Source: Syntrophaceae bacterium (GTDB taxonomy: Bacteria > Desulfobacterota > SM23-61). Taken from it: DNA of 13,252 bases. This document shows positions 3,711 to 13,213 of this stretch, piece by piece. A program made the translations under genes and the position numbers. The first letter of the stretch is position 1. Each line of letters starts with the position of its first letter. The DNA lies in the NCBI GenBank assembly GCA_003154025.1, contig PMCE01000442.1, forward strand, positions 1 through 13,252, in the 5' to 3' direction. A model generated the notes under the pieces. The model saw only the letters and a list, made by a program, of their open reading frames with translations. It was not told the origin of the DNA and did not search any database.

Positions 3711-3757
3711 CCTTGCCAGAAATCCCTCCCGTCCTCCCTGTTTCAAAGGGAGGAGAG
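3711..3757 (+). repeat. G/C-run dispersed repeat, copy 1
   Basis: This copy begins with CCTTGCCAGAAATCC, continues with a C-rich arm, then TTTCAAA and a G-rich arm (GGGAGGA). The same leading 15 bases are found, inverted, at the copy at 9482-9524. It is a degenerate member (CCTCCCTG in place of a pure C-run). It follows the DUF362 stop codon by about 20 bases and could form a hairpin at the end of that transcript. Confidence 0.75.
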
Positions 3758-3795: not shown

Positions 3796-3934
3796 CCCCT
3801 TTGGAAGGGAAGCTTTAAAAAAAATCAATGGGGGGAGGCATAGGCCTTTCTCGTTGCCCCTCCCCCGGACATCCCAGGGCCCCCCAAATTCCCGCTGCCT
3901 GAATTTTTTCACAGCTTCAGGGGGATGAAGGGGG
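3796..3934. repeat. Fold-back element, copy B (GAAGC-GTGAAAAAATTCA arms)
   Basis: The left arm (3796-3829) carries GAAGCTTTAAAAAAAATCA and the right arm (3898-3934), read on the minus strand, carries GAAGCTGTGAAAAAATTCA. The right half matches copy A (1581-1636) closely, including CCCCAA.TTCCC, CCTGAATTTTT, CACAGCTTC and GGGGG.ATGAA. The left arms are less similar. The element ends inside the 5' extension of the next reading frame, so it may supply part of that gene's leader. Confidence 0.72.
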
Positions 3935-3978
3935 ATTTGACGGCTTTTCAAGAGGCTGAACTCCTGCAATCAAGGCTG

Positions 3979-6718: not shown

Positions 6719-6867
6719 TTGCGCATTGCGCATTGGGAATTAAGAATTAAAAGAACAGAAATTAGGAGCATGATTCGTGGGGGTCGAAAATCCGCAATCC
6801 GAAAACCGTCAAGGGGCAACAGGCCTTCTTGTTTTTTAATTCGCAATTCGCAATGCGAAATACGCAA
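6719..6867. repeat. Fold-back repeat with ATTGCGCATT/GCAATTCGCAAT-type arms
   Basis: The left arm (6719-6752) and the right arm (6834-6867, minus strand) match at about 28 of 34 positions: TTGCG.ATT.CGCATTG.GAATT..GAATTAAAA. The arms are built of short repeats of GCGCATT, GAATT and CGCAATT. The 81-base centre encodes nothing recognisable, though a weak hairpin CAAG...CTTG before six T (6809-6836) could act as a terminator for the YitT gene. The element starts three bases after the yitT-family stop codon and ends about 55 bases before the epmA start. Confidence 0.75.
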
Positions 6868-6921: not shown

Positions 6922-7920
6922 ATGGATGAAAAGAAGAAAGAGAATCTGATCCTGCGGGGCAAGATCCTTCATGGCATCCGCCAGTATTTCCTGAAGGAAG
7001 GGTTCGTGGAAGTTGAGACGCCCTACCTCGTTTCTTCCCCGGGCATGGAACCTCACCTCCTGGCCCTGGAAGTAACCATCCATCCTCCCGGGCGCGGGCC
7101 CAAGGGGATGTATCTTCATACTTCTCCCGAGTACGCCATGAAAAAACTCCTGGGGCAGGGATGGGACAAGATCTTCCAAATATGCCGGGTCTATCGGGAC
7201 GAAGAGGCCGGCCCGACGCACCAGATCGAATTTACCATGCTGGAATGGTACCGGGCCCGCGCCGATTACCGGAAGATCATGGAAGATTGCGAAGGGCTGC
7301 TGTATTTCCTCTCCCAAGAGTTGCGGAATGGGACGGAGCTTGCGTATCAGGGCAAGAAGATAGATCTCTCCCCGCCGGCGGAGCGCCTGAAGGTTTCCCG
7401 GGCCATGCGGATGTATGGAAGGGTGGACATTGAGAAAAATGGCGATGGCGCCTCTCTCTTGGAAGAGGCCAAATCGCGGGGTTACCGTTTCGAACCGGGG
7501 GCGGTCTATTCCTTCGATGAGGTCTTTTTCAAAATTTTCCTGGAGTCGGTCGAACCCCGTCTCGGGCAACCCAAACCCACCATCCTGTATGATTACCCGG
7601 TCTCCATGGCCGCACTGGCTCGACGCAAGCCGGGAAACCCTCTATGGGCCGAGCGTTTCGAACTGTACATCGCCGGCCTGGAACTGGCCAATGCCTTCTC
7701 CGAGCTGACCGACCCGACCGAACAGAGGAAACGGTTCGAGTCCGAGCAGCGGCTCCGAGCGGTCCTCGAAAGGCCCCTGTATCCGATCGACGAAGACCTC
7801 CTGGCGGCCCTCTCCCGCATGCCCCCTTCTGCCGGCATCGCCCTGGGAGTCGATCGGCTGGCCATGCTCTTCTGCGACGCTCCTGCGATCCAGGAAGTGG
7901 TGGCGTTTTCGGAATATTAG
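6922..7920 (+). CDS. epmA: EpmA-type elongation factor P--(R)-beta-lysine ligase
   Basis: The 332-residue product is a class II lysyl-tRNA synthetase-like catalytic domain without an anticodon-binding domain, the architecture of EpmA/GenX/PoxA (about 325 residues in E. coli). Visible motifs are FVEVETPYLVSSPGMEPHL (28-46), motif 2 as QICRVYRDEEAGPTHQIEFTMLEWYR (86-111), FELYIAGLELANAFSEL (246-262) and motif 3 as PPSAGIALGVDRLAMLF (301-317). EpmA attaches (R)-beta-lysine to a conserved lysine of elongation factor P, helping ribosomes through polyproline stretches. Its partners, the aminomutase EpmB and EF-P, are not in the window. The ATG has no clear Shine-Dalgarno and follows directly on a fold-back repeat, so expression may be low or leaderless-like. 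A free-standing lysyl-tRNA synthetase is unlikely because the N-terminal OB-fold is missing. Confidence 0.9.
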   Translation: MDEKKKENLILRGKILHGIRQYFLKEGFVEVETPYLVSSPGMEPHLLALEVTIHPPGRGPKGMYLHTSPEYAMKKLLGQGWDKIFQICRVYRDEEAGPTHQIEFTMLEWYRARADYRKIMEDCEGLLYFLSQELRNGTELAYQGKKIDLSPPAERLKVSRAMRMYGRVDIEKNGDGASLLEEAKSRGYRFEPGAVYSFDEVFFKIFLESVEPRLGQPKPTILYDYPVSMAALARRKPGNPLWAERFELYIAGLELANAFSELTDPTEQRKRFESEQRLRAVLERPLYPIDEDLLAALSRMPPSAGIALGVDRLAMLFCDAPAIQEVVAFSEY

Positions 7921-7999
7921 TGAAAGTGTAAGTGAAAGGGAAAGGGAAAACAGTGACCTTCATTGCCTTTTTACTTACACTTACACTTACACTTTCACT
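7919..7999. repeat. Fold-back repeat with CTTACA hexamers
   Basis: AGTGAAAGTGTAAGTG (7919-7934) pairs perfectly with its reverse complement at 7984-7999. The right arm contains a run of the hexamer CTTACA (three units, about 7974-7992), and the left side carries GAAAGG units. The left arm overlaps the epmA stop codon. No T-tract follows, so terminator function is doubtful. Confidence 0.75.
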
Positions 8000-8080: not shown

Positions 8081-9463
8081 ATGACTCGCGAAAAGATTCT
8101 CGATCTGTTGGAAAGACACCATCAGGACCATGTCCTGGACCATTACCGACGCTTGAGCCCGGGGAAGCAGGATCTTTTCCACCGTGGTTTTTCAGGGATG
8201 GATCTGGGGTTGGCCTTTCAGCTTTACGGAAAATTTCCCCAACAAGGAGATTCGCGCCCGTTCCCCGGGGGCATCAGCCCGGCTCCGGTCATACCGATTC
8301 CCAAGGCTCTGGAAGAGATCCGGCGCTGGAAGGAGGCCTACCGAACGGGCGAATCGCTGCTCCGCCGGAACCAGGTCGCCGTTTTGATCGTGGCCGGAGG
8401 GCAGGGGACCCGACTCGGGTTTCCCGGGCCCAAGGGAAGTTTTCCCATCTCCCCGGTGAAGAGAAAGCCTTTGTTTCAGCTCTTTGCCGAATCGATCCAG
8501 GCTCTCTCCGTACGCTACCGGACGGACCTGCCGCTGCTGATCATGACCAGCCAGGAGAATCACGAGGAGACTCAAGGCTTTTTCGAATCCCACGGGTTCT
8601 TCGGACTGAAAAGGGAGGCGGTTCACTTTTTCAGCCAGGGCCTATTGCCCACCCTGACTCCCGAGGGCCGGCTGATCCTGAAGGACGAAGTGAACCTCCT
8701 GGCCAATCCGGACGGCCACGGAGGCTCGATGAAAGCCCTGTATGAGTCCGGAATGGCCGCCCGGTTGAAAGAGCGGGGCATTTTGGAGATTTTCTATTGC
8801 CAGGTGGACAACCCCCTCGCCAGGATCGCCGACCCTGCCTTTATCGGGTATCATCGGGAGGAAGGCGCGGATATTTCCACCAAAGTGGTCCGGCGTCAGA
8901 ACCTGGAGGAAAAAGTGGGGATCTATGGCCTGGTGAACGGCAAGCCGGCCATCGTCGAATACAGCGATTTTTCTCCTCAGGAGTATCGGTCTCTGGATGA
9001 AAAAGGAAATATCCGCTACTGGGCGGGAAACATCGCCATTCACATGATCTCCCTTTCTTTCGTGGAGCGACTGAACCGGCAGGGTTTTGCCCTTCCCTAT
9101 CACCGGGCCGTCAAGGAAGTGGAGGGGCTCGGGTTGGACGGAGAAGCGGCGAAGATGAAGGGCTGGAAATTTGAAACCTTTATCTTCGATGCCATTCCCC
9201 TGGCGCAAAAGAGCTGCTGTGTGGAAGTCATCCGGGAGGAGGAATTCTCCCCGGTGAAGAACCATACGGGCATCGATTCTCCGGAAACCGCCCGGCGGGC
9301 CATGACGAACCTTTTCAGGAATTGGCTTTTTGAGGCGGGCGCCGAAGTCCCACCCGAAGCCCAGGTCGAAATCAGCCCGCTCTTTGCCATGGACAAAGAG
9401 GAGGTGATCGATAAACTGAGGGGGAAGAAGGTGACGGTGCGGGAGGATATGTATTTCGGGTAA
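8081..9463 (+). CDS. UDPGP-family nucleotidyltransferase (UDP-N-acetylglucosamine/UDP-sugar pyrophosphorylase-like)
   Basis: A 460-residue member of the UDPGP type 1 family, which makes UDP-sugars from UTP and a sugar-1-phosphate. The nucleotide-binding loop reads VAGGQGTRLGFPGPKGSF (104-121). NPDGHGGSMKAL (209-220), QVDNPLARIADP (241-252), KVVRRQNLEEKVGIYG (268-283) and the IVEYSDF segment (291-297) match the order seen in eukaryote-type UDP-GlcNAc pyrophosphorylases, and a late FETFIFDAIPLAQ block (about 365-377) also fits. This differs from the bacterial GlmU and GalU types. The sugar cannot be assigned with certainty; GlcNAc-1-P is favoured by the overall resemblance to UAP1/AGX. The start at 8081 has only a weak upstream AAAGGGG at a long distance. 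Product use in envelope or exopolysaccharide synthesis is an inference. Confidence 0.9.
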   Translation: MTREKILDLLERHHQDHVLDHYRRLSPGKQDLFHRGFSGMDLGLAFQLYGKFPQQGDSRPFPGGISPAPVIPIPKALEEIRRWKEAYRTGESLLRRNQVAVLIVAGGQGTRLGFPGPKGSFPISPVKRKPLFQLFAESIQALSVRYRTDLPLLIMTSQENHEETQGFFESHGFFGLKREAVHFFSQGLLPTLTPEGRLILKDEVNLLANPDGHGGSMKALYESGMAARLKERGILEIFYCQVDNPLARIADPAFIGYHREEGADISTKVVRRQNLEEKVGIYGLVNGKPAIVEYSDFSPQEYRSLDEKGNIRYWAGNIAIHMISLSFVERLNRQGFALPYHRAVKEVEGLGLDGEAAKMKGWKFETFIFDAIPLAQKSCCVEVIREEEFSPVKNHTGIDSPETARRAMTNLFRNWLFEAGAEVPPEAQVEISPLFAMDKEEVIDKLRGKKVTVREDMYFG

Positions 9464-9481: not shown

Positions 9482-9524
9482 TATCCCCCCTTTGAAAAAG
9501 GGGGGTGGGGGGATTTCTGGCAAG
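9482..9524 (-). repeat. G/C-run dispersed repeat, copy 2 (left border of the DUF559 unit)
   Basis: Read on the minus strand it is CCTTGCCAGAAATCC, a C-run, TTTTTCAAA and a G-run, then ATAT. Its centre (six C, TTTGAAAAA, six G on the plus strand) is identical over 21 bases to the inverted copy at 9884-9924. The copy lies about 20 bases after the UDPGP stop and ends one base before the proposed DUF559 start codon. Confidence 0.85.
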
Positions 9525-9525
9525 G

Positions 9526-9929
9526 ATGCTTCGATATGGCAACGGCTTGAAATCGAATGCCCGGGATCTCCGCAGCAAGTTAACCGAAGCCGAACAAATC
9601 CTCTGGAGTCGGCTTCGTAGGAAGCAACTATGGGGAGTGCAATTTAACCTCCAAAGGCCAATCGGAAATTACATCGTTGACTTCTACGCAGCGAGGGCCA
9701 AGCTGGTGGTCGAAGGATACGGCTCGGGGCATTTGTCATTCTCCGGAATTAAGAAAAATAAAAAAAAGACGACTATTTGGAAAGCCTTGGACTCTTGGTG
9801 CTTCATTTTGATGATTCCGAAATATTACGGGATACTGAAGAGGTTCTCGAGGTGATATTTCGAAAGTTATCCGAACGGCTAAATCCGGAAGTCCCCCCGT
9901 TCCCCCCTTTTTCAAAGGGGGGTAAATAA
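9526..9929 (+). pseudogene. DUF559 endonuclease-like gene, -1 frameshift at A AAA AAG
   Basis: The first 80 codons from ATG 9526 match the DUF559 family (Vsr-like PD-(D/E)xK endonuclease fold): LKSNARDLRSKLTEAEQILW, SRLRRKQLWGVQFNLQRPIG, NYIVDFYAARAKLVVE. The reading frame from there ends at 9855 with unrelated residues, but the -1 frame from 9765 restores the family C-terminus (DDYLESLGLLVLHFDDSEIL, RDTEEVLEVIFRKL) and stops at 9927-9929, giving about 134 residues if joined. The shift falls in eight A followed by G, where zero-frame codons AAA AAG form the A AAA AAG slippery heptamer. The usual VDG after the conserved Glu reads GYG here. It could be a decayed gene, a sequencing error in the homopolymer, or programmed frameshifting. 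It is bracketed by inverted copies of the G/C-run repeat, and the last dozen codons are encoded by the right-hand copy. Confidence 0.82.
9884..9924 (+). repeat. G/C-run dispersed repeat, copy 3 (right border of the DUF559 unit)
   Basis: Reads GGAAGT, six C, GTT, six C, TTTTTCAAA, six G, TAAAT. It is inverted relative to copy 2, sharing a 21-base identical core. It overlaps the restored 3' end of the DUF559 gene, where it encodes PPFPPFSKGGK. It ends 22 bases before the aspA start codon, so it also forms the 5' leader of aspA-hydF. Confidence 0.85.
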
Positions 9930-9946: not shown

Positions 9947-11335
9947 ATGCCCCACCGCATCGAAAAAGATTTCCTGGGCGAAAAACAGGTCCCCGAAGAG
10001 GCCTACTGGGGGATCCATACCCAGCGCGCCCTGGAGAACTTTCCCATCAGCGGGTATAAAATAAACCCCTCGCTGGTAAAAGCTCTGGCCATGGTGAAGA
10101 AGGCCTGCGGCCGGGCCAACCTCGAGCTGGGGTATTTGGATGAGGCCAAGGGAAAGGCCATCCTTTCGGCCTGCGACGAGGTGATCGAGGGAAAGCTCTA
10201 CGACCAGTTTCTCCTGGACGCCCTCCAGGGCGGGGCCGGGACCTCCAGCAACATGAACGTCAACGAAGTCCTGGCCAACCGCGCCATCGAATTACTGGGG
10301 GGGAAAAAAGGCGACTACGCCATAGTCCACCCCATTGAAGACGTGAACCTGCACCAGTCCACCAACGACGTCTATCCCACGGCCATAAAGGTTTCGGCCA
10401 TCTTCCTGCTGAGAGATTTGAGCCCGGCCGTCGCCCGTGTTCAGGGCGCCTTCCAGAAGAAGGAGAAAGAATTTGCCAAGATCGTCAAGGTAGGAAGGAC
10501 CGAGCTCCAGGAGGCGGTTCCCATCACCCTGGGAGGGGAATTCAGCGCCTTCGGCGAGGCGCTGGCCCGGGACCGGTGGAGGACGTTCAAATGCGAGGAG
10601 CGCCTCCGGGTCGTCAACCTCGGGGGGACGGCGGTGGGGACGGGGCTGAGCGCGCCCCGGAGCTACATCTTTCTGGCCGTCGAGAAGCTGAGGGAGATTA
10701 CCGGCCTGGGCCTCTCCCGGGGAGAAGACCTCCTGGACGCCACGGCCAACACCGACGCCTTCGTCGAGGTCTCGGGGATTCTCAAGGCCCATGCCAGTTC
10801 CTTGACCAAGATCGCCAATGACCTGAGGCTTCTCCATCTCCTCGGGGAGATCGAGCTCCCCAAACTCCAGCCCGGCTCCTCGATCATGCCCGGAAAGGTC
10901 AACCCGGTCATGCTGGAGGCTGCCATCCAGGTAGGATTGAAGGTCATGGCCAACGACTCCCTGGTCACCGCGGCCTGTTCTCGGAGCACCCTGCAGATCA
11001 ACGAATTCCTGCCCCTCCTGGCCCATTCGCTCCTGGAATCCATGGACCTCCTGATCCGGACGGACGGGATCCTGGCCGAACATATTGGCGGGATCACGGC
11101 GAATGAAGCCAAGTGCCGGGAGATCTTTGACGCCAGCCCGATGATCGTCACCGCCTTCCTTCCCCGCATCGGCTACGAGCGCGCGAGCGCACTCCTGGCG
11201 GAGTTTTTCGCCTCGGGAAGAAAGAACGTCCGGGAATTTTTGCGGGAGAAACTGGGGGCGGACCTGGTGGAAAGGGTCCTTTCCGCCGAGAGCCTGATTT
11301 CCTTGGGGTACCGGGAAGATGGAAAAAACACCTAA
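9947..11335 (+). CDS. aspA: Aspartate ammonia-lyase
   Basis: A full-length 462-residue member of the fumarase/aspartase superfamily, converting L-aspartate to fumarate and ammonia. Hallmarks are GAGTSSNMNVNEVLANRA (96-113), HQSTNDVYPTA (136-146), KVGRTELQEAVPITLG (181-196) and the superfamily signature GSSIMPGKVNP (310-320), whose second Ser is the lid residue proposed as catalytic base. The N-terminal RIEKDFLGEKQVPEEAYWGIHTQRALENFPIS is aspartase-like rather than fumarase-like. The last 17 bases overlap the hydF start, implying translational coupling. Aspartate ammonia-lyase genes recur beside hydE/hydF/hydG in anaerobes, so this copy is probably dedicated to, or co-expressed with, [FeFe]-hydrogenase maturation. 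The start codon has AGGA with a long 10-base spacer. The gene is complete, with no missing key residue seen. Confidence 0.95.
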   Translation: MPHRIEKDFLGEKQVPEEAYWGIHTQRALENFPISGYKINPSLVKALAMVKKACGRANLELGYLDEAKGKAILSACDEVIEGKLYDQFLLDALQGGAGTSSNMNVNEVLANRAIELLGGKKGDYAIVHPIEDVNLHQSTNDVYPTAIKVSAIFLLRDLSPAVARVQGAFQKKEKEFAKIVKVGRTELQEAVPITLGGEFSAFGEALARDRWRTFKCEERLRVVNLGGTAVGTGLSAPRSYIFLAVEKLREITGLGLSRGEDLLDATANTDAFVEVSGILKAHASSLTKIANDLRLLHLLGEIELPKLQPGSSIMPGKVNPVMLEAAIQVGLKVMANDSLVTAACSRSTLQINEFLPLLAHSLLESMDLLIRTDGILAEHIGGITANEAKCREIFDASPMIVTAFLPRIGYERASALLAEFFASGRKNVREFLREKLGADLVERVLSAESLISLGYREDGKNT

Positions 11336-13166: not shown

Positions 13167-13213
13167 AGAAATCCCCGCTCGCCCCCTTTTAATAAAGGGG
13201 GGGAATGAGGGAT
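13167..13213 (+). repeat. G/C-run dispersed repeat, copy 4
   Basis: AGAAATCCCC, a short spacer, GCCCCCTTTTAATAAAGG and a G-run form a fourth member in the same orientation as copies 1 and 3. The centre TTTTAATAAA differs from the TTTTTCAAA of the other copies. It begins about 20 bases after the stop codon of the small exported protein, again in a gene-end position. Nothing else is seen to the end of the window. Confidence 0.75.

Follow-up and report, generated by a model that had tools for sequence, protein, structure and literature searches.

A gene of the DUF559 nuclease family, enclosed between two inverted copies of a hairpin repeat, forms a unit that is probably a mobile element, copied by its nuclease through its ends in a manner similar to REP sequences and their RAYT partners. 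The unit was found in a 13,252-nucleotide stretch of DNA from a Syntrophaceae bacterium (contig PMCE01000442.1), referred to here as the window. Comparison among genomes supports its anatomy, its recurrence, the pairing of nuclease clade and repeat, the existence of gene-less copies, insertion within genes, and the occurrence of occupied and empty sites. The pair of gene and repeat looks like an undescribed mobile element and could explain how such repeats spread.

A decayed DUF559 gene between inverted repeats

The unit of the window stands between two host genes, and two further copies of the repeat lie elsewhere in the window.

3711 to 3753, plus strand: lone diverged repeat copy, CCTTGCCAGAAATCCCTCCC with hairpin CCTCCCTGTTTCAAAGGGAGG
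8081 to 9463, plus strand: upstream host gene, UTP-glucose-1-phosphate uridylyltransferase family (profile match)
9485 to 9525, minus strand: left bracketing repeat, hairpin CCCCCCTTTGAAAAAGGGGGG (9485-9505) with head GGGGGGATTT toward the gene, extending up to the start codon
9526 to 9855, plus strand: DUF559 (PF04480) nuclease gene, first part, open frame; decayed, with a partial domain, an altered conserved motif and the frame lost mid-gene
9856 to 9929, plus strand: remainder of the former coding region, C-terminal part in another frame, with its PPFPPFSKGG end inside the right repeat and a stop at 9927-9929
9885 to 9922, plus strand: right bracketing repeat, head CCGGAAGTCCCCCC toward the gene and hairpin CCCCCCTTTTTCAAAGGGGGG (9902-9922)
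9947 to 11335, plus strand: downstream host gene, aspartase/fumarase-type lyase (profile match)
13167 to 13202, plus strand: lone diverged repeat copy, AGAAATCCCC with hairpin CCCCCTTTTAATAAAGGGGGG

The first-pass annotation had placed the gene inside two inverted repeat copies with a 21-base identical core. Indeed, the palindrome at 9485-9505 has its exact reverse complement at 9902-9922 (21 bases each). When at most three mismatches are allowed, seven partly overlapping matches are found at four places (3733-3753, 9484-9505, 9902-9923 and 13181-13202), far above the mean of 0.07 matches in 200 dinucleotide-preserving shuffles of the window, none of which reaches seven. Every copy carries a side "head" (AAATCCCCCC or similar), and the heads of both bracketing copies point to the gene. 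The lone copies annotated near 3711-3757 and 13167-13213 can still be recognised but have diverged, their hairpin cores being three and one mismatches away from the consensus. The window also contains a direct repeat of a different kind (59 bases, 85% identical, 1579-1637 and 3878-3936) and two further inverted repeats, at 6719-6867 and 7919-7999, with arms of 42 and 32 bases and 81% and 84% complementarity.

The DUF559 gene of the window is a broken, decayed copy. Its sole profile match is to Pfam DUF559 (72.1 bits for a curated cut-off of 20.6, E 4e-20) and is partial, covering profile positions 3-67 of 109. The open frame stops at 9855, ahead of the right repeat, and the C-terminal half is found in a different frame. 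The relatives share an E-x-D-G-x-x-H motif, invariant or nearly so across 28 aligned sequences apart from noted exceptions, whose aspartate is changed in the window copy. Intact relatives exist and display the same kind of C-terminal end as PPFPPFSKGG; one of them, L155, reaches 113.5 bits to DUF559 and also matches MTES_1575. The left copy had been described as ending just before the start codon, and the ATG at 9526 does directly follow it, the start having been corrected by match to relatives (MLRYxxxLK...). The overlap of the right copy with the 3' end of the gene holds for the original gene but not for the frame now open. At the aspA locus, the nearest relative (L001, 68% AspA identity) offers no empty-site comparison because the uridylyltransferase match is absent from its 17 kb, in which aspA is followed by hydF.

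Hairpin flanks and repeat content across genomes

The comparison set consisted of 155 genomes of one class, that of genome G001, to which the AspA of the window had led. PF04480 matches occur in 68 of these genomes and the palindrome CYYCCTTTNNNAAAGGRRG in 78, with up to 96 copies per genome against 0-2 for a reversed control pattern. A tree built from 63 DUF559 domains places the window in a clade of 22 members carrying the marker "QFYRQK" or close variants (support 98/84), and T-type palindromes are present at the edges of all 22. Among the 20 rows of this clade typed by a script requiring perfect arms, 15 have hairpins on both sides and five on one side. The typical 5' anatomy includes a hairpin CCCCCTTTnnnAAAGGGGG, a linker, GGGGGATTT and the start codon, and the typical 3' anatomy AAATCCnCCC, a linker and CCCTCCTTTnnnAAAGGAGGG over the stop region. 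A close intact relative has 2080 homologues; among the 120 listed, a permissive pattern recognises a repeat-encoded C-terminal tail in 113.

A general scan of the DUF559 genes at 64 loci, 62 from the class of G001 and two others, covered about 150 bases at each edge and counted every hairpin with perfect arms of 8 bases. The class loci are matches of at least 99 bits (63, G030:C93 being left out as it lies at a contig end), loci L172-L180 stand outside the 64-locus counts, and weaker DUF559 matches, many of them in long helicase-like frames, are mostly outside the sample. Hairpins flank 55 of the 64 loci, 33 on both sides and 22 on one, compared with 18 of 539 control windows at the same loci. 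Gammaproteobacteria and Anaerolineae were sampled as the best 30 loci each of longer match lists, one per genome, and only pyrimidine/purine hairpins were counted. In the former, 28 of 30 DUF559 loci are flanked (17 on both sides, 11 on one; control 11/275), and in the latter 21 of 30 (16 on both sides, five on one; control 6/261). Repeats thus flank DUF559 genes above chance, a check that the earlier annotation had called for, the control windows containing a hairpin in 2-4% of cases overall, and most DUF559 homologues are flanked. The loci devoid of a perfect hairpin at either edge, namely nine of 64 in the general scan, two of 30 in Gammaproteobacteria and nine of 30 in Anaerolineae, count against the mobile-element reading.

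Ten named regions were also considered (Neisseria, E. coli, Photobacterium, two cyanobacteria and Synechocystis, Sinorhizobium, Deinococcus, Azospirillum, Sphingomonas). The script detects pyrimidine/purine hairpins at both edges in three of them (L253, L254, L256), at one edge in three (L248, L250, L252) and at neither edge in four, where inspection by eye reveals shorter or imperfect G/C repeats. This incomplete flanking likewise counts against the mobile-element reading. In the Neisseria DUF559 region, similar stretches are arranged in direct rather than inverted order. A role of DUF559 as mover of CGTC-type repeats was rejected, the Neisseria region looked at giving no support for it.

The hairpin type tracks the nuclease clade. 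The types found at different DUF559 clades are CCCCCTTT..AAAGGGGG, CCCCTCCC..GGGAGGGG, CCCCCGCC..GGCGGGGG-like and CCTCTCCC..GGGAGAGG. Placed on the nuclease tree, these four labels need five changes (minimum three), as against a mean of 21.6 after shuffling and none of 200 shuffles as low, with 17 of the 63 rows unlabelled and shuffles that ignore relatedness. The gammaproteobacterial loci L309 and L316 have both proteins like those of the window's clade and T-type hairpins. Two DUF559 clades with different hairpins are present together in each of seven genomes (G029, G035, G036, G047, G051, G052, G090). The idea that only one DUF559 clade is flanked was rejected, as a scan for T-ended hairpins had been too narrow and the general scan finds other hairpins at other clades.

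Genes for GIY-YIG nucleases, which are small and scattered too, served as a specificity control in the class of G001. None of 30 has pyrimidine/purine hairpins on both sides, two have them on one side, and 28 have none. That small dispensable genes and hairpin repeats simply gather at the same permissive intergenic sites is hence very improbable. Such a coincidence would suit one intergenic site, flanked by genes for a periplasmic binding protein and a permease, which has many unlike insertions in different genomes; it is opposed by those 28 unflanked GIY-YIG genes of the same genomes, by the 2-4% of control windows, by insertions inside genes, and by DUF559 flanks that are tight, mostly inverted and clade-specific.

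A few observations concern other sequences. In four genomes (L391, L392, L396, L401), GIY-YIG genes share palindromes (ATTGCCCGGCTTGACCGGGCAAT or ATTGCCCAATCAAGTTGGGCAAT) on one side or on both, which may be a second pair of nuclease and repeat; CGTC repeats at GIY-YIG genes were rejected as a candidate (1/30). In seven genomes (L084, L085, L086, L087, L088, L090, L095), the DUF559 frame continues stop-free into similar downstream sequence, which in L085 is a radical SAM gene by Pfam. A phage collection yielded three weak matches. Two records of a plasmid collection, NZ_OL790696.1 and NZ_CP119142.1, are chromosome-sized (4.8 and 2.2 million bases).

The repeat is also more abundant where the gene is present. 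At least three T-type palindromes are found in all 21 genomes with the flanked clade, in 20 of 47 with other DUF559 genes only and in 18 of 87 without a DUF559 match (155 genomes); for any DUF559 against none, p is 9e-7, a value too small because the genomes are related. In Gammaproteobacteria, the search used the published intrastrand triplex motif BoxC/PIT/TM-ECO, given in the accessible text of Holder et al. 2015 (PMC4666352) as CCCTCNCCC N3-6 GGGNGAGGG N3 GGGNGAGGG. This pattern occurs in 31 of 143 genomes, that is, in 19 of 31 genomes with DUF559 at 50 bits or more versus 12 of 112 without (p 3e-8, again too small because of kinship), or in 20 of 47 with any DUF559 match versus 11 of 96 without. 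The repeat is therefore not equally abundant in genomes with and without DUF559. Against strict dependence, at least ten palindromes occur in 12 of the 87 class genomes without a DUF559 match, and G218, G220 and G266 are Gammaproteobacteria without a match but rich in triplex motifs (27, 43 and 16). Gene loss, incomplete assemblies or another mover could explain such genomes.

Gene-less copies, occupied sites and E. coli ycjD

Doublets made of two ends and a spacer, with no gene, are present in 27 of the 155 genomes (control 0). Genome G082 contains 11 of them, nine with like spacers of one length ending in ATTATC. In G082 the likeness extends past the doublet, into larger repeats, and in G059 some doublets are in tandem; therefore, not every doublet is an independent insertion. 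With a G082 doublet as DNA query, the best match reached 77%, and no close sister genome was recovered.

Orthologous sites are patchily occupied. Between the periplasmic binding protein gene and the branched-chain permease gene, 29 loci are readable on both sides: four hold a DUF559 unit, nine only 7-28 bp, and 16 other matter, including gene-less hairpins in five. This gap is an insertion hot spot, in which unlike repeats and genes are found in different genomes.

Units are found inside genes as well. At L347, an in-frame unit of 184 residues splits methionine synthase (metH). When structure 8g3h is compared with the L347 protein, positions 233-689 and 694-1161 align to 2-460 and 649-1108, with four residues between the two aligned parts. 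Two of 20 metH loci are occupied by the unit and 18 have 0-10 residues at that point, one empty locus being 87% identical in DNA. The metH unit, which starts with ACCCTCACCCC and ends with GGGGTGAGGGT, has an inverted doublet on each side of the gene. Another unit separates HSDR_N from SWI2_SNF2 in an HsdR-type gene, another lies within an MmeI-type methylase, and further ones are found in N6_N4_Mtase, DUF1156 and Methylase_S genes. Fusion of a nuclease to DNA-methylase genes could be functional in itself, whereas no such benefit is easily seen for metH. In L103, the HsdR-type frame also has a GIY-YIG domain (residues 250-320) beside the DUF559 unit, with no CGTC-type repeat around that domain.

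Mobility of the unit is thus indicated by comparison. The first-pass annotation had proposed a master element that encodes a nuclease and spreads short non-autonomous copies, by analogy with REP and RAYT; this proposal gains support from the gene-less doublets, the occupied and empty orthologous sites and the in-frame insertions. A target-site duplication was not established, as the metH site differs between relatives beyond the insert and the E. coli site is rearranged. At two E. coli sites, no new insertion was seen at strain level: almost every genome is occupied at tldD-aaeR (at least 80% of the query is covered in 5369 of 5426), and yhjE-yhjG is variable (coverage of at least 80% in 1595 of 5426), by rearrangement as well as presence.

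The DUF559 gene of E. coli is ycjD. Its neighbours on either side are fabI and sapF, and repeat-like DNA is present at its 3' end and past it. Upstream, at L258:3749-3815 (minus strand), a long near-perfect palindrome CACCTCATTCTGACA...TGTCAGAATGAGGTG spans the ycjD start region. A 48-base BoxC-like query from the ycjD region has matches in 5377 of 5426 genomes, at a median of 19 places. In 60 of 5411 E. coli records, those with ycjD (n=37) have 13-33 other places (median 21) and those without (n=23) 1-20 (median 5); the difference (p 5e-9) is confounded because ycjD presence follows lineages, and is a consistency check, not proof. According to the accessible text of PMC12817139, ycjD occurs in phylogroups A, B1 and C and in two further sequence types, replacing an efflux operon. 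The BoxC/PIT/triplex repeats of E. coli were already known in the 1990s, and 3610 have been counted in 262 proteobacterial genomes; in the accessible text of PMC4666352 they have no known way of spreading, and their gene contexts never showed activities that would provide mobility.

Nuclease fold, proposed mechanism and known systems

An AlphaFold2 model of a close intact relative has moderate confidence (mean pLDDT 73, pTM 0.66). Its best fold matches are 3hrl, a protein of the same family from Neisseria gonorrhoeae, and 3r3p, the homing endonuclease I-Bth0305I (E 3e-4, TM by target length 0.80-0.81), while the match to Vsr (1vsr) is weak and far lower. The best reading of this model is a fold of the Vsr/EDxHD homing-endonuclease type. 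In the accessible parts of two papers, YcjD is placed near Vsr in the PD-(D/E)XK superfamily (PMC1189080), and DUF559 genes are assigned, in that one paper, to the EDxHD homing endonuclease family (PMC9403480).

The nuclease might accordingly be a parasite of the repeats rather than their maker. The repeats would then spread otherwise, by replication slippage or another enzyme, and a homing-type DUF559 nuclease would cut unoccupied doublets, into which recombination would copy the gene. The closest solved fold outside the family, that of I-Bth0305I, and the family assignment just cited agree with this, as do doublets without the gene and repeats in genomes without DUF559. However, the insertion points in metH, HsdR and MmeI are repeat-free in the compared relatives, and therefore the unit came with its ends; moreover, the clade-repeat pairing and the co-occurrence exceed what a guest on independent repeats needs. 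This alternative is consequently considered unlikely.

Still less probable is a host-side role, in which the repeats would be structural DNA, the nuclease an enzyme that repairs or processes hairpin or triplex DNA, and the pair would be kept by selection or self-regulation. The Caulobacter DUF559 protein VsrA acts in vivo on chromosomal DNA of cells lacking a methyltransferase (PMC12907096, accessible text), and triplex motifs are linked to genome instability (PMC4666352, accessible text), which would both suit such a role. It leaves unexplained, however, whole units inside metH or HsdR frames, the patchy occupation of orthologous sites and the presence in one genome of two DUF559 clades whose repeats differ.

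The mobile-element reading is thus preferred. Taken with the fold, the YcjD and DUF559 papers and VsrA point to an element whose nuclease would cut at, or for, the hairpin ends, the cutting step being what we infer. The repeats would be the ends of a mobile unit. Each end consists of a hairpin, pyrimidine-rich in one arm and purine-rich in the other, and of a side head resembling the purine arm, which is the layout of an intrastrand triplex motif. The DUF559 nuclease would recognise and cut DNA at the ends of the unit or at its targets, and repair or transposition would then copy the unit. Gene-less pairs and single ends would be non-autonomous copies that spread or persist, in the way of REPs with RAYTs, and nuclease clade and repeat type remain paired. 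The window's own unit, with the uridylyltransferase and aspartase genes on either side, has decayed. It is presumably the nuclease itself that moves the repeats; its mode of cutting, and triplex or hairpin DNA as its putative substrate, belong to the same proposal.

A broader reading is put forward more tentatively, at somewhat less than even confidence: DUF559 nucleases may form a widespread class of mobile elements with triplex-forming hairpin ends, and be the missing source of BoxC/TM-type repeats in Proteobacteria, Cyanobacteria and other phyla. Such elements would move through nuclease cuts at folded DNA, a route distinct from both HUH and DDE transposition. Pairing BoxC/PIT/triplex repeats with a specific nuclease family would give them a named and testable mover, which laboratory E. 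coli K-12 carries as ycjD. REP-like systems would gain a second example, based on an unrelated enzyme, and a large family of "unknown function", called endonuclease by annotation pipelines, would receive its first biological context. In the open literature, to which the search was directed with subscription journals outside it, no paper joining DUF559 or ycjD with the repeats was found.

Among known repeats, the published BoxC/PIT/TM-ECO pattern fits the repeats beside DUF559 in Gammaproteobacteria and in the E. coli ycjD region. The window copies, in contrast, are a T/A-containing version (CCCCCTTT...AAAGGGGG...GGGGGATTT) that the published G/C pattern does not match. On paper, pairing rules would let their layout, a hairpin with a third strand, form a putative triplex. 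Like MITEs, the gene-less element has both ends and a short spacer; unlike insertion sequences and MITEs, the DUF559 unit has no classical transposase gene and no established target duplication. The likeness to the EDxHD homing endonuclease I-Bth0305I and to Vsr is one of fold, whereas DUF559 units, unlike homing endonucleases, are also found in intergenic DNA. To our knowledge, no free-standing homing endonuclease has such palindromic bracketing ends.

The closest parallel is with REP/REPIN sequences and RAYT (TnpA-REP). RAYTs are HUH enzymes, in this case tyrosine transposases, whereas the gene of the unit encodes a PD-(D/E)XK/Vsr-type DUF559 nuclease. The heads of DUF559 units are AAATCCCCCC or CCCTCACCCC, with no GTAG or CGTC tag, and the palindromes differ too from those of REPs. 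The REP/RAYT system, as described in the accessible text of PMC3733652 and PMC3116915, comprises short palindromes with a constant head, frequently in inverted doublets, a dedicated gene and non-autonomous copies. In both systems, inverted palindromes with a head bracket a dedicated gene, groups of this gene have different repeats, and non-autonomous copies accompany them.
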